A DNA stretch of 64,000 bases from Candidatus Hydrogenedentota bacterium (lineage in GTDB: Bacteria > Hydrogenedentota > Hydrogenedentia > Hydrogenedentales > CAITNO01): assembly GCA_012730045.1 (NCBI GenBank), contig JAAYBR010000062.1, positions 1-64,000 on the forward strand, read 5' to 3'. The notes beneath the pieces were generated by a model. The model was not told the DNA's origin, ran no database searches, and saw only the letters and a program-made list of their open reading frames with translations. How positions within the stretch are numbered: position 1 is the stretch's first letter; the number at the start of each line of letters is the position of its first letter. Below are positions 28,918 through 47,035 of the stretch, piece after piece. Position numbers and translations under genes: made by a program.

Positions 28918-29163
28918 TCAGCTCAGTTCATCAAGGTCGGAACAGTGCGCGCGCCAGAACGACGCGCCGCAGTCCACGCAGACCCAGTTGGGGTCGTCCA
29001 CATCCATGATGTCCTTGCCGCGGACGGCCTCGCCCCGTTCGAGACGGGCGAAATCCCCCATTTCGGGAACCCCGTAGAGCACGTCGTGGACGCGCCCCCC
29101 GCCGCAGGCGGAACACCGCCGTGGCCTCGCCATGTAGTGCGTCTTGCGCCCCTGCTCAGTCAT
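28918..29163 (-). CDS. Small double-CxxC zinc-ribbon protein
   Basis: The 81-residue protein has CSACGGG near residue 17 and CVDCGASF near residue 63, which can form one zinc ribbon, with an acidic stretch between (GKDIMDVDDPNW). I do not recognise a family. It is the last gene of the SCP2/aminotransferase/transketolase group on the minus strand, 16 bases after SCP2 gene 2, with a G-rich Shine-Dalgarno. Many such ribbons assist nucleic-acid or protein binding, so a role in the pathway itself is not implied. Confidence 0.65.
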   Translation of the reverse strand: MTEQGRKTHYMARPRRCSACGGGRVHDVLYGVPEMGDFARLERGEAVRGKDIMDVDDPNWVCVDCGASFWRAHCSDLDELS

Positions 29164-29179
29164 GGCACCCCCTATCCCG

Positions 29180-29971
29180 TCAAGTTAGCAGTCCGGCGAT
29201 CCTCAGCATGAAATCGCCCACTTTCGCCCCGTATTCCGGCGACCCCTCGCTCACCACGAGCCCGCGGGCCATGGCCTGGAGGGAGTCCACCTCGTTGTTC
29301 AGCACCGGTATCGCGCCCTCGACCCCCGCGAAGCGCATGTGGATGAAGGGCTTGCGCCGCGTGTACACGCCGCGCCCCGCCTTGGTCTTGCCCGCCTTGA
29401 CCCGCAGGTGGCACGCGATGTCCGTGCCGTCCACGGACCACTGGTAGATGCGGTCCGGCTGCTTCGCGGTCCACTTGTTCATCTCGGCGTCGCCCGCCTT
29501 GTTCAATTGGCTGAGGGCCGTCGAGATCATGTACAGGGTCATCTTGACCTTGAGCCGCGCCTTGACGGGGTCCTTTGGCGACGCGGTGGGCATGAGCAGT
29601 TTCAGGCCCAGCATCAGCTTCACCGTGTTGACCACGAGTCCGAAACGCCCGAAGGCGCCCTTCATCAGGGGCCCCAGGGCGGGTACTACGGGCTTGCCCG
29701 CGAAAAACGCGTTCATCTTTGCGACACTGGAGAAGGCGAAGGTCACGTCCGCGTCCGGCACGATCTCCTGGGCCACGGTGAAGGTGCCCCTGTCAAAGCA
29801 CAGGCAGGCGCCCACCCGCCCGGCGGGGTCGTCGGCGACAAACTGGACCCTGCCGACGGTGTCCTGGAAGGCGGCGGCGGTCTTGGGGGCGTCCTCGATC
29901 ATGACCTTGATGACGGGCAGGACGGCGCGGCAGACGATCCTGGCGGTGAGCAGTTCCTCGCTGGTGGCCAT
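29180..29971 (-). CDS. SCP2 sterol-binding domain protein (copy 2)
   Basis: The 263-residue protein carries an SCP2-type lipid-binding domain in its first half: VGACLCFDRGTFTVAQEIVPD, then DVTFAFSSVAKMNAFFAGK, the typical strand-helix ending of the fold. A longer helical and strand-rich second half follows (MISTALSQLNKAGDAEMNKW and a VDSLQAMARGLVV helix). SCP2 domains hold lipids, acyl-CoA or sterols in a hydrophobic tunnel. No signal peptide is present, so it acts inside the cell. It starts three bases after the transketolase C-terminal gene. A related protein is encoded first in the operon. Confidence 0.8.
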   Translation of the reverse strand: MATSEELLTARIVCRAVLPVIKVMIEDAPKTAAAFQDTVGRVQFVADDPAGRVGACLCFDRGTFTVAQEIVPDADVTFAFSSVAKMNAFFAGKPVVPALGPLMKGAFGRFGLVVNTVKLMLGLKLLMPTASPKDPVKARLKVKMTLYMISTALSQLNKAGDAEMNKWTAKQPDRIYQWSVDGTDIACHLRVKAGKTKAGRGVYTRRKPFIHMRFAGVEGAIPVLNNEVDSLQAMARGLVVSEGSPEYGAKVGDFMLRIAGLLT

Positions 29972-29974
29972 CGG

Positions 29975-30994
29975 TTAAACCTCGTCTTCCCAGTCTTCGT
30001 CCTCTTCAAACTCGCGCCCCAGCAGCTCGCGGACCTTGGCGATGATGCCGTCGGTGTCCGTGCCGAAGAGGTTCATCAGATCCTCGGGGTACCCGTGGGG
30101 GGTGAAGGTGTCGGGGATGCCGACCTTGGTGAAGGCGCAGCCCTTGCCGCTGGCGGCGATGACGTCGGCCACTGCGGTGCCCAGTCCGCCGACGACGTTG
30201 TGGTCCTCGACGGTGAGGATGCGCCGCGTCTCGGCGACGGCCCGCAGGACGGCCTCTTCGTCAATGGGCTTGATGGTGTGCATGTTGAGCACGCGCACGC
30301 TCAGGCCGTCGTTCTCCGCGAGCACCCTGGACGCCTCGACGGCGTGGAAGACCGTGGGGCCGCAGGCGATGATGGTGATGTCCGTGCCGGGGCGCATCTC
30401 CACGGCCTTGCCGATCTGGAAGCTCTCGTCCTCGCGGTCGTAGACCGTCGGCTCGAAGCCGCGGCCGATGCGGATGTACACCGGCCCGGCGATGTCGAGG
30501 CACTTCTTGACGGCCTGGGCCGTTTCGAAGCCGTCGGCGGGCACGATCACCGTGAGGTTGGCGAAGGCCCGCACGATGGACAGGTCCTCCGTGGCGTGGT
30601 GGGTCGTGCCCGCGGAGCCGAAGGAGGTGCCGCCGTGGGTGGCGATGACCTTCACGTTGAGGTTCTGGTAGCAGACGTCCGTGCGCAGGAACTCGCAGGC
30701 GCGCATGGACGCGAAGGCGGAGAAGGTGCTGACGAAGGGCGTGAGGCCCATCTTCGCCAGGCCCGCCGCCGCGCCGAACATGTTCTGCTCGGCGATGCCG
30801 AAGTTGAAGAAGCGGTCGGGGAACCGCTCGCCGAAGGCGCCGATCTGCGTGGACTTGGCGAGGTCGGCGGACAGGCCGACGATGTCGGGCCGGGCCGCGC
30901 CCAGGTCCGACAGGACCACGCCGTAGATCTCACGCGCGCTCAGCTTGGTGGCGTCGTAGACGGTCCAGCTTGTGCTGCTTTCCACACCGGCCAT
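29975..30994 (-). CDS. Transketolase, C-terminal subunit
   Basis: The 339-residue protein has the pyrimidine-binding and C-terminal domains of a split transketolase: FFNFGIAEQNMFGAAAGLAKMG with the ThDP-activating glutamate, HATEDLSIVRAFANLTVIVPAD, and the final domain with TVEDHNVVGGLGTAVADVI. It would pair with the N-terminal subunit encoded three bases upstream to move two-carbon ketol units. Split transketolases often serve special pathways rather than the pentose phosphate route. Here the neighbours are an aminotransferase and two SCP2 carriers. The last residues are highly acidic (EFEEDEDWEDEV). The donor and acceptor are unknown. Confidence 0.9.
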   Translation of the reverse strand: MAGVESSTSWTVYDATKLSAREIYGVVLSDLGAARPDIVGLSADLAKSTQIGAFGERFPDRFFNFGIAEQNMFGAAAGLAKMGLTPFVSTFSAFASMRACEFLRTDVCYQNLNVKVIATHGGTSFGSAGTTHHATEDLSIVRAFANLTVIVPADGFETAQAVKKCLDIAGPVYIRIGRGFEPTVYDREDESFQIGKAVEMRPGTDITIIACGPTVFHAVEASRVLAENDGLSVRVLNMHTIKPIDEEAVLRAVAETRRILTVEDHNVVGGLGTAVADVIAASGKGCAFTKVGIPDTFTPHGYPEDLMNLFGTDTDGIIAKVRELLGREFEEDEDWEDEV

Positions 30995-30997
30995 CGC

Positions 30998-31828
30998 TCA
31001 ACCCTCCCCTATGGACTGCTTGGCCTTGGCCACCATCTCGGCGCTGAGTCCGCCGTAGTGCCATTTCGCCTTGGCTTCCATGAAATCCACGCCCTTGCCC
31101 TTGACCGTTTCGCACAGGAGCATCACGGGGCCCTGGTCCCACGCGATGGCGAACTCGACCGCCTCGGCGAGGGCCGCCAGGTCGTGGCCGTCCACGACCC
31201 GGGTCTCCCAGCCGAAGGCCCGCCACTTGTCGGCGAGCGGCTCCAGGGACATGACGTCCTCCGTGTACCCGTCAATCATGTAGTGGTTGCGGTCGAGGAA
31301 GGCGACGAGGTTCGGGGTCTTGTAGTGGGCCGCGGCCATGGCCGCCTCCCAGATGGACCCCTCGTTGCTTTCGCCGTCGCCGATGATGCAGAAGACACGC
31401 GTGTCCTTCTTGAGCACGCGGGCGCCCAGCGCCATGCCGAGGGCCTGGCAGAGCCCGTGGCCCATGGAGCCCGTGGAGGCGTCCACGCCCTTCGCCTTCG
31501 CGCCGTCCAGGTGCATCCCCAGCTTGGACCCCGTCTCGTTGAAGGTCTTGAGGTCCTCCATGGGGAAATAGCCCCTGTTGGCCAGCACGACCGCGTGGCC
31601 GACGCCGCCGTGGCCCTTGCTCAGGACGAAGCGGTCGCGGTCCTCCCAGTCGGGCCGGGCCGGGTCCACGCGCAGGTACTTCCAGTAAAGGAGCACCAGC
31701 ATGTCCACCATGCTGAGGGACCCGCCCACGTGGGCGCCGCCGGACCAGCCGGTGACGTCCACAATGTCCCGGCGGATTTTCGCCGCCGTCCTCTTGAGTT
31801 CGCCCAGTTCCTGTTGACTGAGGGGCAT
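30998..31828 (-). CDS. Transketolase, N-terminal subunit
   Basis: The 276-residue subunit supplies the pyrophosphate half of the ThDP site. GGAHVGGSLSMVDMLVLLYW and DRFVLSKGHGGVGHAVVLA are typical of transketolase, and GDGESNEGSIWEAAMAAAHY is the metal/ThDP motif. It is the partner of the C-terminal subunit gene three bases downstream. AAAGGAG precedes the start. The gene lies 16 bases after the aminotransferase, in one run of minus-strand genes. Together the pair would be about the length of a normal transketolase. Confidence 0.92.
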   Translation of the reverse strand: MPLSQQELGELKRTAAKIRRDIVDVTGWSGGAHVGGSLSMVDMLVLLYWKYLRVDPARPDWEDRDRFVLSKGHGGVGHAVVLANRGYFPMEDLKTFNETGSKLGMHLDGAKAKGVDASTGSMGHGLCQALGMALGARVLKKDTRVFCIIGDGESNEGSIWEAAMAAAHYKTPNLVAFLDRNHYMIDGYTEDVMSLEPLADKWRAFGWETRVVDGHDLAALAEAVEFAIAWDQGPVMLLCETVKGKGVDFMEAKAKWHYGGLSAEMVAKAKQSIGEG

Positions 31829-31844
31829 GCGCCGGACTCCTTTC

Positions 31845-33095
31845 CTAGATGCCGCTCCCGTAGAACGCGCGCACCGCCTTGAACGCCTCGTCGCAGACGG
31901 CGACGGTGTCTTCTATGTCTTTGCGCGTGTGCGCCGTGCTCACGAACCAGTTGTGGTGCGACGTGATGAAGACCCCGCGCCGCGCGCACTCGCCGCACCA
32001 CCGCTGCTGCATCTCCAGCGTCGGGTCGTCGGTGATGCGCGCGTAGAGCATGGACGGCTCGCCGCTGATGCGCAGGTCGAAGCCGTTGCTCCGGGCCGCG
32101 TCCACCATGCCCGCCGCCAGCAGCCCGCCGGTCTCGCTCAGGAGGCGCGGGCCGTTGATCCGCCGCAGCTCCTGCAGGTTGGCCAGCGCGGCCGCCATGG
32201 GCCCCGCGCCGTACCAGTAGCTGCCCGTGTGGAAGACCTTCGACACGTCGCCGCGCAGGGCGTCGCCGCCCACGAGCGCGGAGATGGGGTATCCGTTGCC
32301 GATGGCCTTGCAGAAGCAGATGAGGTCCGGGGTGAACCCGTAGTGCTCGCAGGACCCGCCCATGTGGAGCCGGAACCCCGCCCGCACGTCGTCAATGATG
32401 AAGACGATGCCGTTGGCGCGCAGCAGCGCCTCGACCCGCTCCCAGTAGTGCGGCGCCGGCAGCTCGTTGTCCGTGAAGATGGGGTGGTGGAGGGGCGACG
32501 AGATGAACCCGGCGATCTGGCCGGGGCTGTCCGCCACGACACGCTCCAGGGCCTCCACATCGTTCCACGGGATGCGGATGATGTTGGCCGTGTCCTCCTC
32601 GATCACCCCGTGGTGGCCCGGCCCCTGCATCCACGGCGAGGTGCCGTGGTAGCCGCCCTTGATGGCGACGATCTTCTTGCGGCCCGTGGCGGCCCGCGCC
32701 GTCATCACGGCCAGGTTGGTCACGTCCGCGCCGTTCTTCGCGAAAAAGGCCCAGTCGGCCGCGGGAACCAGCTCTGTCAGATATTCCGCCAGCTCCACCA
32801 TCACGGGCGCGCACACGCTGTTCACGTCGCACTTTTCCATCTGCGCCCGGTACGCCGCGTCCACCACGGGGTTCCGGTACCCCTGGATCATGGGGCCGTA
32901 GGCGCACATGTAGTCAATGAAGCGGTTGCCGTCCACGTCCCAGAAATACGCGCCCTCGGCGCGGTCGGAAAAGAAGGGGTACGCCGACACGGGGACGTAG
33001 GGCGCCGGGCCGAAATGTCCGTAGATGCCGCCGGGAATGACCCGCGACGCCCGCTCCATCCACGCCGCCGTCTTGTCAAACGTGTAGGGATCCAT
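31845..33095 (-). CDS. Class III PLP aminotransferase (glutamate-1-semialdehyde aminomutase-like)
   Basis: The 416-residue enzyme has the class III fold motifs: GNRFIDYMCAYGPMIQGY, AAFFAKNGADV-type binding region (DWAFFAKNGADVTNLAVM), IIDDVRAGFRLHMGG, and the PLP lysine K263 in CFCKAIGNGYPISALVGG. It resembles glutamate-1-semialdehyde 2,1-aminomutase, but hem genes are absent and the context (split transketolase, SCP2 proteins) points to an aminotransferase on a ketose- or aldehyde-like product. GGAGGAAGG precedes the ATG. It follows SCP2 gene 1 by 18 bases. Exact substrate is unknown. Confidence 0.87.
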   Translation of the reverse strand: MDPYTFDKTAAWMERASRVIPGGIYGHFGPAPYVPVSAYPFFSDRAEGAYFWDVDGNRFIDYMCAYGPMIQGYRNPVVDAAYRAQMEKCDVNSVCAPVMVELAEYLTELVPAADWAFFAKNGADVTNLAVMTARAATGRKKIVAIKGGYHGTSPWMQGPGHHGVIEEDTANIIRIPWNDVEALERVVADSPGQIAGFISSPLHHPIFTDNELPAPHYWERVEALLRANGIVFIIDDVRAGFRLHMGGSCEHYGFTPDLICFCKAIGNGYPISALVGGDALRGDVSKVFHTGSYWYGAGPMAAALANLQELRRINGPRLLSETGGLLAAGMVDAARSNGFDLRISGEPSMLYARITDDPTLEMQQRWCGECARRGVFITSHHNWFVSTAHTRKDIEDTVAVCDEAFKAVRAFYGSGI

Positions 33096-33113
33096 CCTGC
33101 CTTCCTCCGGTCG

Positions 33114-33875
33114 TCAGTCGAGAAACCGCGCCACCCGGTCCATGATGAGGGTCGCGCTGTCCACCAGGGGCAGCATCCCCCACACCTCCACGTCGCCCTG
33201 GCCAATGGCCGACATGCCGTCGCGCTTCCCGCCCAGCACTTCATGGGCGGTCTGGACGTCCTTGAAGGTCATCCGCGCCGCGGGCGCTCCGGCGAGGCCG
33301 CGCCCCGCGTGCACCCCGTCCTTCCCGAAGCTCACCCAGGCCGCCGGGCCGTCCGGGAGCACCTGAAGCTGGAGCGTGCCCGCGGGCGCGCCCGCCGCGA
33401 GGCCCGCGCTCACGGGGTCCGTCGCCGCCAGCGCCCGTACCGCAAAGGCCCCCGTGTACAGCGTCAGCGCCGTGTTCGCCGCCAGCAGCGCCGGATCCTC
33501 CAGCGGGTCCGTCTTCGGCTTCAGCACGGCCTCCAGCCGCGCCGTCGCCTTGGGAAACTCGTCCTTAAGAAAGCCCAGGCGCGTGAAGCCCGTCAGGGGG
33601 ATGGGGAGGGCGGTGCCGTCGAACATCCGGTTCAGATGGCGGGGCGTCGCAAAGAGGAGGCGGACGTCGGGGTTCATGTGGCGGCCCAAATCCTGCCGGC
33701 AGCCCGTCGCTGAATACTCCAGCCACGCCTCCGGCCCGAAGGCCACCGTGAACTGCACCGCGATCCGCCACGGCTCGGAAAGCCGCGCCGCCTCCGGGTC
33801 CACGTCCCCCAACACCTCAAGATTCTTGAGGACCGCCCCAAGGTTTAGATGCGCCCGGACCAACTCGCTGCTCAT
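33114..33875 (-). CDS. SCP2 sterol-binding domain protein (copy 1)
   Basis: The 253-residue protein is the first gene of the operon. It shows the same plan as copy 2: AAWVSFGKDGVHAGRGLAGAP, then ARMTFKDVQTAHEVLGGKRDGMSAIGQGDVEVWGML, the SCP2 end strand and helix, here placed at the C-terminal rather than the N-terminal half. The N-terminal 150 residues are strand-rich without a known motif. It has no signal peptide. Two SCP2-type carriers bracketing enzymes suggest that a hydrophobic intermediate is held during the pathway; this is inference. Confidence 0.75.
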   Translation of the reverse strand: MSSELVRAHLNLGAVLKNLEVLGDVDPEAARLSEPWRIAVQFTVAFGPEAWLEYSATGCRQDLGRHMNPDVRLLFATPRHLNRMFDGTALPIPLTGFTRLGFLKDEFPKATARLEAVLKPKTDPLEDPALLAANTALTLYTGAFAVRALAATDPVSAGLAAGAPAGTLQLQVLPDGPAAWVSFGKDGVHAGRGLAGAPAARMTFKDVQTAHEVLGGKRDGMSAIGQGDVEVWGMLPLVDSATLIMDRVARFLD

Positions 33876-33915
33876 AACGACCGTCCCTCATACGCCTGTT
33901 CGCGACCGAAGGTTG

Positions 33916-33944
33916 AAAATAGCAGAAGCCCCGCGAGAATTCAA
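33916..33944 (-). promoter_or_regulatory. Promoter of the SCP2/aminotransferase/transketolase operon
   Basis: Read on the minus strand, TTGAAT (33944-33939), a 17-base spacer and TATTTT (33921-33916) form a good sigma70 promoter. The start near 33909 gives a leader of about 34 bases to the first SCP2 gene. No other comparable promoter is visible between the six genes. Confidence 0.7.
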
Positions 33945-41576: not shown

Positions 41577-42569
41577 GTGGCCACGCGAAAACAGAAAGTG
41601 AAGGTGGGCGTCTTCCTCATCGCCTGCCTGGCCCTCATCGTGGGCGGCGCCATGCTCATCAAGGGCATGTACCACGACCCCGGCGAGGAGTACACCCTCG
41701 AGTTCGACGAGTCGGTCCTCGGCCTCTACGAGGGCGGGATGGTCGAGTACCTAGGCGTGCCCGTGGGCAAGGTGCGGAACATCCGGGTCACCGAGAGTCA
41801 GAAGGCCCTCGTCGAGATCCTCATCAACCCCGAGAAGGTGACGCTGCGCAAGGGCGTGGAGGGCCAGCTCGTCCTGTACAGCATCGCCGCGGGCACCATG
41901 GCCATCAGCCTCAGCGGCGGCGAGTCCGACGGCCCCGTGCTCCCCGGGATGAGCCGCATCCCCACCAAGACCTCGACCATCGAGGCCATCAGCTCGCAGA
42001 TCACCGACATCATGGCCCAGCTTAATGACATTGCGGGAAAGGTCAGCGACCGGCTCGACGCGCTGCCCGAGGAGGACATTCGGGAGGTCGTGGAGCGGGT
42101 CAAGAACCTGCTGAAGAAGGGCGAGGGGGTCATGGACGAGGGCGGGAAACTCGCCACGGAGACCACCGAGACGGTCAAGGCCCTCCGCGAGGACGCCCGC
42201 CGCGTGGTGGACGCCCTGGAGGCGCGCAGCGCCGACCTCCAGAGCCTCGCGAAGGAGATGGAGTCCCTGGTCAGGACGGCGAATGAGAAGATGGGCGCCG
42301 TGGACGTGGCGGACACCCAGGCGCGCGTCCAGAAGGCCCTCGACGCCGTCACCTCCCTCTCGGCCTCGGTCGAGGCCTCCATGGAGCAGCTCGACACCGT
42401 CACCAAGGACGTGCTGCACGAGACGGACAACGTGGAGCACAGCCTGCGCTCCACGATGAAGGAACTGACCGAGGCCTTTGAAAGCCTGCGCCTCCTGATG
42501 GACCAGCTCAAGGCCGACCCGTCCCAGCTGGTGCGCGGCAAGTCCGTTTTCCGGCAGGCCCCGAAATGA
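41577..42569 (+). CDS. MlaD-type MCE domain protein
   Basis: The 330-residue protein begins with a GTG preceded by AAGGAACAGG. A single N-terminal membrane helix (VGVFLIACLALIVGGAMLI) is followed by one MCE domain (ESVLGLYEGGMVEYLGVPVGKVRNI to IAAGTMAISLSGG). A long helical, coiled-coil-like tail with many charged heptads follows from about residue 140 to 325. MCE proteins form periplasmic rings that bind lipids next to the MlaE/F complex. The long tail resembles tube-forming MCE proteins more than short MlaD. The last four bases overlap the lipoprotein gene. Confidence 0.9.
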   Translation: MATRKQKVKVGVFLIACLALIVGGAMLIKGMYHDPGEEYTLEFDESVLGLYEGGMVEYLGVPVGKVRNIRVTESQKALVEILINPEKVTLRKGVEGQLVLYSIAAGTMAISLSGGESDGPVLPGMSRIPTKTSTIEAISSQITDIMAQLNDIAGKVSDRLDALPEEDIREVVERVKNLLKKGEGVMDEGGKLATETTETVKALREDARRVVDALEARSADLQSLAKEMESLVRTANEKMGAVDVADTQARVQKALDAVTSLSASVEASMEQLDTVTKDVLHETDNVEHSLRSTMKELTEAFESLRLLMDQLKADPSQLVRGKSVFRQAPK

Positions 42570-42595
42570 GAGCGCAACCGACAGGACAGGGAACC

Positions 42596-43237
42596 ATGGC
42601 GGAGAGACACATGCTACGGACAATGGCGGTCCTGCTGGCCGCGGCGGCGCTGGGGACTCTCCCGGCCGGGTGCCTCGGCCCCCGCACCCTGATGGAAACC
42701 CGCCAGTTCCTGCTGGCGCCGGCGCCGGGGGAGGCCCCCGCCCTGGCCGATTCCGGGAACACCCTGGGCATCCGCCCCCTGGCCGCGGCCCTGCCCTACG
42801 ACCTGCGCATGGCCGTTCTGGCGGAGGACGGGACCCTGGGCTATCTGCCCCATGACAAATGGGCGGAGCGGCCCGAGACGGCCCTCACGCGCTCGCTCTC
42901 CGACATGCTGCGGGCCACCGCGCGCTATGCGGACGTCGGCGACGCCGCCGAGATGGTGCGCCCCTCCCTGATTCTCACGGGCGAGCTGCGCGCCCTGCGG
43001 CTGAACCGCGCCGTCTCCCCCGCCACCGCCGAGGTGGAGGTCCGCATGGAGCTGCGCGCGTCGCGCGAGCCGAAGGCGGTCTGGACGGGCACCCTGGTGG
43101 AAACGGAGCCCCTCGACGAGGACAGCGGCGCGGGCTTTGCGCGCGCCGCAAACCGCGCCGCCGGGCGCCTCGTGACCCGGGCGGCCGCGGAAATGGCGAA
43201 GGCCACGCCGGACGCGCCCGCGCCCCCGGCGAAGTAG
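42596..43237 (+). CDS. ABC-transport auxiliary lipoprotein (PqiC-like)
   Basis: The 213-residue precursor has a lipoprotein signal peptide (LRTMAVLLAAAALGTLPAGC) with the lipobox cysteine in LPAGC. The mature domain resembles the DUF330/PqiC family found with MCE systems (TRQFLLAP, then LGIRPLAAALPYDLRMAVL and LTRSLSDMLRAT). It is probably anchored in the outer membrane and completes the lipid-transfer path. The ATG at 42566 overlaps mlaD by four bases but gives a longer N-terminus. The ATG at 42596 with AGGGAA upstream, or 42611 with GGAGAG, gives a better signal peptide. Confidence 0.82.
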   Translation: MAERHMLRTMAVLLAAAALGTLPAGCLGPRTLMETRQFLLAPAPGEAPALADSGNTLGIRPLAAALPYDLRMAVLAEDGTLGYLPHDKWAERPETALTRSLSDMLRATARYADVGDAAEMVRPSLILTGELRALRLNRAVSPATAEVEVRMELRASREPKAVWTGTLVETEPLDEDSGAGFARAANRAAGRLVTRAAAEMAKATPDAPAPPAK

Positions 43238-44022: not shown

Positions 44023-45555
44023 TCACAGGTCCGCCCCGCAGTACGAGAGGTTGAAACTCTTGTTGCACAGGGGGAAGTCGGAAATCTGCTGCCCGCGCAT
44101 CGCCATGGCCAGCCCGGCCCAGTTGTGGAACGAGGGGTCCACCACCTTGTATGCGGCGAACCGTCCCGCCCCGTCCGTGAGGACGGTGTGGCAGATTTCC
44201 CCGCGCCATCCCTCCACCACGGAGACGGTGAGCGAATCGGCCGCCAGGGGGGCGGCGGCCGCGCTGAGCACCGGGCCCTCCGAAAGGTTCTCCAGCCGCT
44301 CCCGCACAAAGGCCGCGGAATGGACCATCTCGCGCCACCGGACCTGGGCCCGCGCGAAGACGTCCCCGCTGGCCCAGGTGGCCGTGGGGATGCCGGTGAA
44401 CTGGTAGATGCCCGAGGGATATTCAAACCGCGCGTCGCGCCGGATGCCGCAGGCGCGCGCGGGAACGCCGACCAGCCCCAGGGCCGCGCACAGGTCGGGG
44501 GTGATCCGGCCCGTCTCCTCGAAGCGGGCCATGACCGACGCGGTGTTCCATAGGAGGCTCACCGCGTCCCGGGTGTCGCGGAAGACCGCGTCAAGGCGCT
44601 TTAGAATCTCCCTGCGGAGCTCCGGCGTGAGGTCAAAGGCGACCCCGCCCGGCCGCACCCAGCCGCGCCCGAAACGGCTGCCGCAGGCGAGTCCGGTCAT
44701 GTTCAGGTAGTCGCCCCGCAGCCGTCCGCAGAAAGAGGCCGTGGGCAGAAAGCCGACATCCCCCGACAGCGCGCCCAGGTCGCCCGTGTGGTTCGCCAGG
44801 CGCTCCAGTTCCAGGGCGATTCCCCGAAGCTCCAGCGCGCGGAACGGGGCGGCCGTTCCCGTGATCGCCTCGATGCCCTGGCAGTACGCCAGCGCGTGGC
44901 CGACGGTCGTGTCCCCGGCCAGCGTCTCCATGTGGTGGATGGCGCGCCGGCCGGGGCCGCCAATCAGGGCGTCCTCGACGCCGCGGTGCTGGTATCCCAG
45001 CGAAATCTCCAGATGCATCACATTCTCGCCGTGGCACTGAAACCGGAAATGTCCCGGCTCGATGATGCCTGCATGCACCGGCCCCACGGCGACCTCGTGG
45101 ACCTCCTCGCCCTCCACCCGGTAGAAGTCCGTCACGCCGACGACCGGCGGCTCTTCCCCGCCGCGGCCCCAGGCGTCGTGTCCCGGGCGGCGGGAGCGGT
45201 GGAAGCGGAGCGGCTTGAGCCAGGGATGGCCCTCGGGCCGGAGGCCCCACTGCTCCGCGATCTCGCGCTCAAACCAGTGCGCCTGGGCGCATTCCGGCGT
45301 CAGGGCCGGGTAGCCGTCCCCGGAGACATCCGCCGAAAGCACCAGGAAGCCGCCCGTGTCCGCCGCGCCGAGCACCGCATGCAGGCGCACCCTGCCGCCG
45401 CCGGGGGCCGGGGCGCCGAACAGGCTGACGATCCGCCCGCCGTCCGCCGTGTGCATCAGAATCTCCTCGCGGAAATCCTCCACCGGCAGCACGGGCACGC
45501 GGTCCAGGGGGACGCGCTCACAGTTGAACACGGGAAGCGGAGAATCACAGCTCAT
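44023..45555 (-). CDS. NuoCD/HycE-like large subunit lacking [NiFe] cysteines (Ehr-type)
   Basis: The 510-residue protein has an N-terminal NuoC-like domain (HWFEREIAEQWGLRPEGHP), then the large-subunit domain (GPVHAGIIEPGHFRFQ, LGYQHRGVEDAL). Where [NiFe] enzymes have the first metal-binding motif CGxC, this one reads ETLAGDTTVGHALAY. At the C-terminus, the DPCxxC motif is replaced by ISDFPLCNKSFNLSYCGADL. It therefore cannot hold the [NiFe] site and matches the energy-converting hydrogenase-related (Ehr) group. It probably works as an electron or proton coupling module with an unknown donor. It overlaps the upstream membrane subunit by 11 bases. Confidence 0.88.
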   Translation of the reverse strand: MSCDSPLPVFNCERVPLDRVPVLPVEDFREEILMHTADGGRIVSLFGAPAPGGGRVRLHAVLGAADTGGFLVLSADVSGDGYPALTPECAQAHWFEREIAEQWGLRPEGHPWLKPLRFHRSRRPGHDAWGRGGEEPPVVGVTDFYRVEGEEVHEVAVGPVHAGIIEPGHFRFQCHGENVMHLEISLGYQHRGVEDALIGGPGRRAIHHMETLAGDTTVGHALAYCQGIEAITGTAAPFRALELRGIALELERLANHTGDLGALSGDVGFLPTASFCGRLRGDYLNMTGLACGSRFGRGWVRPGGVAFDLTPELRREILKRLDAVFRDTRDAVSLLWNTASVMARFEETGRITPDLCAALGLVGVPARACGIRRDARFEYPSGIYQFTGIPTATWASGDVFARAQVRWREMVHSAAFVRERLENLSEGPVLSAAAAPLAADSLTVSVVEGWRGEICHTVLTDGAGRFAAYKVVDPSFHNWAGLAMAMRGQQISDFPLCNKSFNLSYCGADL

Positions 45556-47035
45556 GGGGGGCTCCCTCCACGATGTGGACAGCGGCCCCGAGCATGTCCG
45601 TCAGCGGGCCGGGCAGCCAGACTCCCAGCAGCAGCAGGGCGCCCACGCACACGGCGACCAGCAGCTTCTCGGTCACGCCCGCGCGCTCGGGCCGGGGAAC
45701 GCCCGCGGGATCGCCCCAGGCCAGGGGAATCGCGTTCCGCAGGATGCCCACGAAGACGGCGGCCGCCCCCGCGAGAAACAGGCCGAGGGTCCAATAGGCG
45801 CCCTGGCCGGCCGCCACCACCAGGAGAATCAGCTCGCTCAGGAACACCGCAAACGGCGCCGCGCCGACCAGCACCAGCAGGCTCACCAGCAGCGCCCCGC
45901 CCCACACGGGGGCCGTCTTCAGCGAGCCCGCCAGACGCCGCATGTCGTGCGTTCCGTGCATCTGGCCGAGGCGGCCGGCGGCGAAGAAGGCCAGCGACTT
46001 GGCGAGGGAGTGGTTGAGCGTGTGCAGCAGGGCGGCGAAGACGCCGAACCCGCCCAGTCCCAGCCCGATGGCGATGATGCCGATGTGCTCGATGCTGCAG
46101 TAGGCCAGGAGCCGCTTCAGGTCGCGCTGGGAGCCGATGAACGCCGCGGCGGTCAGGAGCGAGGCCAGGCCGAAGAACAGCAGCAGCCGGTGGCTCCAGC
46201 CCGTGTTTCCTGTGGCTGTCTCCACCAGGGGCATGTACCGCATGACCGCGTAGAGGGCGGCGTTCAGCATGAAGCCGGAGAACAGGGCGGACACCGGCGC
46301 GGGCGCCTGGCTGTGCGCGTCCGGCAGCCAGCTGTGCATCGGGGCGATGCCCGCCTTCGTGCCGTAGCCCACGAGCAGAAACAGGAAGGCCGCCTTCATC
46401 AGCACCGGGTCCAAACGCGCCGCGTTTTCATTGAGGCAGGTCCAAAGCAGCGCCTGCGACCCCGGATAGTGCAGCCCGCTGGCCGCCGCGCCGGCGAAGA
46501 GGGTGCCCATGAAGGCGAAGGCCACGCCCACGGAGCAGATGATGAGGTATTTCCACATCGCCTCCATGGACTCCGGGGTCCGGTGGGTGCAGATGAGGAA
46601 CGCGGTCACCAGCGTGGTCGCCTCGATGCCCACCCACAGAATGCCGATGTTGTCGGAGAGCAGCACCAGCGCCATGGCCGCCAGCGCCCCGAACCAGAGC
46701 GCGCCGAAGCGCCGCATCCCCGCCGAGTCCGTCCGGTGCTCCGCGGGCTCCCCCCGGAAATAGGCGGGCAGATACAGGGAGCTCAGTGTGAAGACTGCCG
46801 TCATCACCAGCAGGTGGTACGCCGAGAGCGCGTCGAGGTGGAGCCAGCCCCACCCGGCCGACAGCGAACCCTCCGCGCGGACCCCCCGGACAAAGACGAG
46901 GGCCGCGGCGGCCCACAACAGCACCCCCGCGCGGATGACCGCCATGACCCCGCCGCGCGACCGGCAGGCGAGGCACGCCCCGGCCCCCAGCAGGGGCAGG
47001 GCGATCAGAATCCAAAGGAATCCGGCGGCGTTCAT
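45545..47035 (-). CDS. HyfF/NuoN-like antiporter subunit
   Basis: The 496-residue membrane protein has about 14 hydrophobic segments. It contains the proton-channel motifs of the Mrp/NuoLMN family: WVGIEATTLVTAFLI with the helix glutamate, YGTKAGIAPMHSWLPDAH, RDLKRLLAYCSIEHIGIIAIGLG and LNHSLAKSLAFFAAGRLG. These supply key lysines and histidines for ion translocation. In Hyf and Ehr complexes this subunit sits between HyfE and the large subunit, as here. It starts six bases after the HyfE-like gene. Whether it moves protons or sodium is not clear from sequence. Confidence 0.92.
   Translation of the reverse strand: MNAAGFLWILIALPLLGAGACLACRSRGGVMAVIRAGVLLWAAAALVFVRGVRAEGSLSAGWGWLHLDALSAYHLLVMTAVFTLSSLYLPAYFRGEPAEHRTDSAGMRRFGALWFGALAAMALVLLSDNIGILWVGIEATTLVTAFLICTHRTPESMEAMWKYLIICSVGVAFAFMGTLFAGAAASGLHYPGSQALLWTCLNENAARLDPVLMKAAFLFLLVGYGTKAGIAPMHSWLPDAHSQAPAPVSALFSGFMLNAALYAVMRYMPLVETATGNTGWSHRLLLFFGLASLLTAAAFIGSQRDLKRLLAYCSIEHIGIIAIGLGLGGFGVFAALLHTLNHSLAKSLAFFAAGRLGQMHGTHDMRRLAGSLKTAPVWGGALLVSLLVLVGAAPFAVFLSELILLVVAAGQGAYWTLGLFLAGAAAVFVGILRNAIPLAWGDPAGVPRPERAGVTEKLLVAVCVGALLLLGVWLPGPLTDMLGAAVHIVEGAPHEL

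Follow-up and report, generated by a model that had tools for sequence, protein, structure and literature searches.

A 64,000-nucleotide stretch of a Candidatus Hydrogenedentota genome (GenBank assembly GCA_012730045.1, contig JAAYBR010000062.1, positions 1 to 64,000; referred to here as the window) encodes on its minus strand a class III pyridoxal 5'-phosphate (PLP) aminotransferase (AT), the two halves of a split transketolase (TKn and TKc) and two predicted tandem SCP2-like lipid-carrier proteins (SCPa and SCPb), arranged in the order SCPa-AT-TKn-TKc-SCPb. This five-gene module is real, widely conserved and undescribed, a new gene system built from parts of known families. The reading preferred here, to which a probability of about 0.38 is assigned, is that it specifies a carrier-assisted two-step pathway that would interconvert a long-chain 2-amino-1,3-diol with a fatty aldehyde and a two-carbon unit, with the cleavage direction favoured.

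A first-pass annotation of the window had described six minus-strand genes separated by gaps of 3–18 bases; all six open reading frames (ORFs), running from position 33875 down to 28918, were found again, as were the gaps between them (18, 16, 3, 3 and 16 nt). Conservation was assessed using the aminotransferase as a query, which gave 80 loci from GTDB contigs with AT identities of 51–97%. These loci are distributed over at least eight phyla, namely Hydrogenedentota, Spirochaetota, Desulfobacterota, Bacteroidota, Bacillota, Actinomycetota (Thermoleophilia), Myxococcota and Nitrospirota, and the gene group is thus not limited to a single strain. Cultured bearers include Desulfatibacillum alkenivorans, Lutispora and Oceanirhabdus. 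The complete order SCPa-AT-TKn-TKc-SCPb is present in 56 of the 80 loci and in 49 of the 58 with enough flanking DNA (the scripted count was 48 of 58, to which locus L067, mis-ordered only through an over-long ORF, was added as the 49th), an arrangement that is far beyond chance. Among 40 relatives, which are not independent of each other and whose counts carry no p-value, an AT orthologue was found in 26; SCPb accompanies it in 25 of these (the contig of the 26th stops before SCPb) and occurs in none of the 14 relatives that have no AT orthologue. The closest related locus, from a Hydrogenedentota metagenome-assembled genome (MAG) of the same genus, encodes an AT 97% identical to that of the window. 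The sixth gene of the run, which encodes a zinc-ribbon protein, was found in the 40 genomes only in that of the window and in this same-genus relative, adjoining SCPb in both, and was not found in any other fetched locus; being genus-specific, it falls outside the conserved unit, which therefore comprises the first five of the six genes originally grouped together. Beyond these five, no further conserved operon genes were found other than TetR (20 and 5 loci), VOC/glyoxalase-like (nine loci), alanine dehydrogenase (eight loci, in Desulfobacterales and Spirochaetota) and two-domain flavin oxidoreductase (seven loci) genes. The genome containing locus L053 also carries SCPa and AT followed by only the C-terminal half of SCPb (L124/L131), with no transketolase between them, an apparent internal deletion.

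The aminotransferase (31845..33095, minus strand, 416 aa) gives a strong match to the Pfam family Aminotran_3 (E = 1.2e-40). Its assignment as a glutamate-1-semialdehyde aminomutase (GSAM) was considered and rejected, since it scores below every NCBIfam GSAM cut-off (200.8 versus 527 bits for hemL and 215 versus 398 bits for PRK00062) and is closer to a different enzyme. Indeed, the closest solved structure is that of the aminopentol aminotransferase FumI (PDB entry 6hbs), with an E-value of 2.5e-91 compared with 1.7e-49 for GSAM and with 310 bits compared with 172 bits in the PDB search, at an identity to FumI of 39–43%. A 35-row tree separates the module enzymes and FumI from the GSAM-like enzymes with 100/100 support. 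Consistently, 28 diagnostic positions are at least 90% conserved in the 80 module aminotransferases, identical in FumI and missing from all seven GSAM-like enzymes, while the opposite pattern, agreement with the GSAM-like enzymes and not with FumI, is seen at only seven. FumI from Sphingopyxis sp. MTA144 (PDB entries 6hbs and 6hbv), which has the same class III fold as AT, takes the amino group from C2 of hydrolysed fumonisin B1, an amphiphile that resembles sphinganine, and passes it to pyruvate, yielding the 2-ketone and alanine (PMC2933618). The substrate of FumI bears a C2 amine beside a C3 hydroxyl group on a long chain, as is proposed for that of AT, but the two enzymes are only approximately 40% identical. 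To our knowledge, the fumonisin pathway of FumI includes no transketolase or SCP2 partner.

The transketolase is encoded by two genes, TKn (30998..31828, minus strand, 276 aa), which corresponds to the thiamine diphosphate (ThDP)-binding N-terminal half and strongly matches Transketolase_N (E = 1.5e-47), and TKc (29975..30994, minus strand, 339 aa), the C-terminal half, with strong matches to Transket_pyr (E = 1.5e-39) and Transketolase_C. The closest solved structures, 6yak for TKn and 6yaj for TKc, belong to the split transketolase of Carboxydothermus hydrogenoformans, with which the module enzyme shares the two-gene division, the set of catalytic histidines and the Ser, His and Arg residues of the phosphate site. 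The catalytic histidines are invariant (H33, H73 and H106 of TKn in 62 proteins, H257 in 61 with one gap, and H132 of TKc), the ThDP motif (GDG...N) is present and the DGE motif is invariant. Likewise, S48, H120 and R178 of TKc, the equivalents of the phosphate-site residues S345, H416 and R474, are invariant in 60 proteins. The module enzyme differs from that of Carboxydothermus in being encoded beside SCP2 proteins and an aminotransferase and in its acceptor site: the Asp there (D424 of human transketolase, D469 of the Escherichia coli enzyme) is gone from all 60 module members, its place being taken by Ala in 56, including Ala128 of the window TKc, and by Gly in four, and 44 of the 60 have also lost the phosphate-binding Arg that corresponds to R318 of the human enzyme. 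This Asp contacts the α-hydroxyl group of the acceptor; laboratory variants at D469 are more active on the aliphatic aldehyde propanal, and the stereoselectivity of transketolase is inverted in D469Y (PMC3657141; PMC5573996). On the donor side, E. coli H100 enforces the use of a hydroxylated ketol, and the H100L substitution opens the enzyme to pyruvate (PMC10787763); the equivalent residue is kept in the module transketolase as H106. The combined loss of the Asp and retention of the His predict that the substrates are a 1,3-dihydroxy-2-ketone and an aldehyde that lacks an α-hydroxyl group. A DXS-like use of pyruvate as donor was discarded, given the invariance of the H100 equivalent and the presence of DXS genes in the hosts.

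The other transketolase and DXS proteins of the hosts retain the acceptor Asp, with the exception of an unusual split transketolase-like protein (L143), in a comparison in which E1-type proteins do not align at this position. The other thiamine diphosphate enzymes of the window genome are DXS, an unusual transketolase-like protein in which the Asp is kept and a pyruvate dehydrogenase (PDH) E1. The transketolase-like protein (L113, contig C8; approximately 629 aa) has an odd acceptor-loop motif, HAGIDDMADNTCHYG, and similar proteins occur in several relatives; beyond it, no further canonical transketolase was found in the 97% complete window genome.

The first-pass annotation had recognized SCPa (33114..33875, minus strand, 253 aa) and SCPb (29180..29971, minus strand, 263 aa) as SCP2-type proteins, and family-level matches, models and structural comparisons agree with this. 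Taken alone, the window SCPa matches no Pfam family, and SCPb matches SCP2 below threshold (18.9 bits against a cut-off of 21.3), but Pfam SCP2 (PF02036) was matched in 42 of 54 SCPa and 31 of 44 SCPb family members. The AlphaFold2 models of SCPa and SCPb (predicted local distance difference test scores of 92.9 and 94.1, respectively) each display two successive SCP2-like units, and the Foldseek matches of both are SCP2, UbiJ and the SCP2-like C-terminal domains of alkylsulfatases. Both proteins are thus confirmed, at the level of predicted structure, as tandem SCP2 repeats, a feature that had previously escaped notice, and they constitute two distinct families. The SCP2 fold and the carriage of hydrophobic ligands are common to UbiJ, SCP-2 and the alkylsulfatase C-terminal domain; what sets the module apart is the presence of two distinct tandem-repeat proteins, one tied to each enzyme, which fall outside any solved or curated family. 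SCPa lies ahead of AT in nearly all loci, and three Spirochaetota genomes have it divided between two loci, SCPa-AT and TKn-TKc-SCPb, so that each enzyme keeps its own carrier. For this reason, the carriers, earlier described as bracketing the enzymes, are better viewed as individually paired with them, SCPa being the partner of the aminotransferase and SCPb that of the transketolase. Both presumably bind pathway intermediates.

A different association was observed in a Deltaproteobacteria MAG, in which a 779-aa fusion of SCP2, PDH-type E1α and E1β (L091:1798-4134, plus strand) is encoded directly downstream of a FumI-like aminotransferase, joining a carrier domain to a ThDP enzyme other than transketolase. 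A complete Deltaproteobacteria chromosome contains a remnant of the E1β C-terminus (L044:11316-12086, minus strand), 54% identical to the L091 fusion and convergent with SCPa-AT.

In the proposed pathway, SCPa would present an amphiphile, a sphingoid base or a close analogue, to the FumI-like aminotransferase, which would transfer the amino group at C2 to a keto acid; if FumI is a guide, this acceptor would be pyruvate and the by-product alanine. What remains of the amphiphile would be a 1,3-dihydroxy-2-ketone, an acyloin. SCPb would present this acyloin to the split transketolase, which would break the C2–C3 bond, free a fatty aldehyde and transfer the remaining two-carbon ketol to a sugar phosphate acceptor. 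Both steps are chemically reversible, the reverse run amounting to synthesis of the amino-diol. The first-pass annotation had envisaged a hydrophobic aldehyde that is extended and aminated while held by the carriers; this chemistry fits the evidence well, narrowed here to sphingoid-type 2-amino-1,3-diols, but the cleavage direction had been overlooked. Cleavage is more likely than synthesis because FumI, the characterized relative, is catabolic, because alanine dehydrogenase and TetR genes recur near the module and because an E1-type enzyme can apparently replace the transketolase in L091, E1-type acetoin dehydrogenases being enzymes that cleave acyloins. It is also favoured by the apparent lifestyle of many of the bearers, which we take to resemble anaerobic necromass degraders. 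An α-oxoamine synthase, the family of serine palmitoyltransferase (SPT), is missing from six of 14 module genomes, including that of the window, in which no bioF/KBL-type match above background was found; this absence was counted towards cleavage, and it leaves an SPT-independent synthesis open as well.

A number of observations weigh against this pathway. FumI sits on a long branch, its exact place in the aminotransferase tree is unsure, and its substrate is the 1-deoxy backbone of a fungal toxin, unlike the 1,3-diol proposed here. The retained equivalents of S345, H416 and R474 indicate that one partner of the transketolase is probably still a sugar phosphate. Ordinary transketolases give 3S ketols, while D-erythro-sphinganine is 3R, and thus either the selectivity of the enzyme would have changed, which the altered pocket could bring about, or the natural substrate would be threo. 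Full-length ceramidase-family proteins occur in only two of the 14 module genomes, and the three found in Hydrogenedentota are all in genomes where SCPb was not found; moreover, the conserved surroundings of the module include no gene for a ceramidase, a sphingosine kinase, uptake or an aldehyde dehydrogenase. Finally, the substrate and its lipid nature, the amino acceptor and the direction have all been inferred from sequence.

Many weak and partial matches to PF04734, the N-terminal region of neutral ceramidase, were seen in proteins of 400–900 aa in every Hydrogenedentota genome searched, and those of the window genome are all of this kind. Ceramidase co-occurrence was considered as support for catabolism and set aside, the weak matches being everywhere and the full-length ones rare or without SCPb.

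The same enzymes might instead run towards synthesis, with a ketose phosphate supplying the ketol unit that the transketolase joins to an SCPb-held fatty aldehyde and the aminotransferase aminating the product on SCPa with alanine as donor, thereby generating sphingoid-type bases independently of SPT. The residue and family evidence is direction-neutral throughout, the six hosts without an α-oxoamine synthase could need another route, ceramidase is mostly missing and the module is stable within families (SCPb in 25 of the 26 AT-bearing relatives), as would be expected of a membrane-lipid pathway. Nevertheless, neither a fatty-aldehyde-forming reductase nor an N-acyltransferase is recurrent beside the module, the characterized relative FumI acts in catabolism, and the alanine dehydrogenase and TetR genes and the E1-type replacement in L091 suit cleavage at least as well; an anabolic role is considered less likely. 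It is also possible, and only slightly less probable than the preferred reading, that the carriers and reaction types are as described here and the substrate is another hydrophobic amino or keto compound, such as some other aminolipid, a lipid bearing an amino sugar or a molecule linked to an isoprenoid. SCP2 domains bind many ligands, the Foldseek neighbours of the carriers include UbiJ and alkylsulfatases, a sugar-derived partner is allowed by the retained phosphate-site residues, and FumI is a distant, long-branch relative; on the other hand, the loss of the Asp that binds the α-hydroxyl group speaks against an acceptor that resembles a sugar. On general grounds, quinones are improbable in the clostridial bearers, and the hopanoid-like head group suggested by the first-pass annotation is unsupported, no squalene-hopene cyclase exceeding the cut-off in any of the 14 module genomes.

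A housekeeping role, in which the split transketolase serves the pentose phosphate pathway in the usual way, the aminotransferase is of GSAM type and both are co-transcribed with SCP2 proteins by chance, would agree with the intact catalytic residues, with an ordinary split transketolase being the closest solved structure and with the unusual nature of the sole other transketolase-like gene of the window genome. It is nonetheless very improbable: the five-gene order is kept across phyla, the module is wholly missing from 14 of the 40 relatives, AT is far under the GSAM cut-offs and closer to FumI, and the acceptor Asp, lost in 60 of 60 module transketolases, is carried by the separate transketolase-like and DXS genes of the hosts. 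The first-pass annotation had named normal GSAM and transketolase activities as the alternative to a specialized role, and this alternative is accordingly disfavoured.

The first-pass annotation knew of no described pathway with this gene set, and a search of the open-access literature found no relevant paper on the combination of SCP2, transketolase and aminotransferase or on transketolase with sphinganine. According to a 2018 review (PMC6148460), sphingolipid metabolism begins with one PLP enzyme, SPT, and ends with another, sphingosine-1-phosphate lyase, in every organism studied so far. These make and break the C2–C3 bond of a 2-amino-1,3-diol, as the module would, but the module would do so by pairing a PLP aminotransferase with a ThDP transketolase. 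It is tentatively suggested that the module represents a third, thiamine-dependent route to make or break this bond, with a tandem SCP2 carrier for each enzyme, distributed over eight or more phyla, most of them anaerobic, and giving some hosts an SPT-independent origin of sphingoid compounds. The pair of reaction types and the class of product match those of engineered transketolase–transaminase cascades, which yield 2-amino-1,3-diols and are man-made, short-chain and carrier-free; we know of no described natural operon of this type.

If the preferred cleavage pathway or its reverse is correct, a transketolase acting on a carrier-held lipid would contribute a ThDP-based route and widen the natural roles of this enzyme, and bacterial tandem SCP2 proteins would be given a role. 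A catabolic module would mean that sphingoid bases can be degraded anaerobically in sediments, digesters and the rumen, and an anabolic one would imply sphingoid lipids in phyla without SPT. The module enzymes are also ready-made candidates for 2-amino-1,3-diol biocatalysis. Even with another substrate, a function deserves to be assigned to a five-gene unit that recurs in eight phyla and for which none has been described.

Within the window, the zinc-ribbon gene (28918..29163, minus strand, 81 aa, CxxC...CxxC) lies 16 nt downstream of SCPb. Co-transcription of the six genes is suggested by the short gaps; the single shared promoter proposed by the first-pass annotation was not recovered, a scan giving no minus-strand σ70-like site upstream of SCPa. 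The upstream neighbour, 262 nt from SCPa and on the same strand, encodes an ABC-F ATPase, and a lactonase-type β-propeller is encoded on the opposite strand downstream of the six-gene run. Antisense to the transketolase genes there is an 847-aa open frame (29339-31882, plus strand), the GC content of which at the three codon positions (0.94/0.45/0.63) matches a shadow frame cast by high-GC genes rather than a true gene. Approximately 8 kb upstream of the module, MlaD-type and ABC_trans_aux-type genes (41577-43237, plus strand) resemble an Mla-like lipid-transport system. Further upstream, a Complex-I 49-kDa-like gene adjoins genes for Mrp/antiporter-like subunits (44023-47035, minus strand), possibly encoding a group 4 hydrogenase-like or Mrp-type complex.

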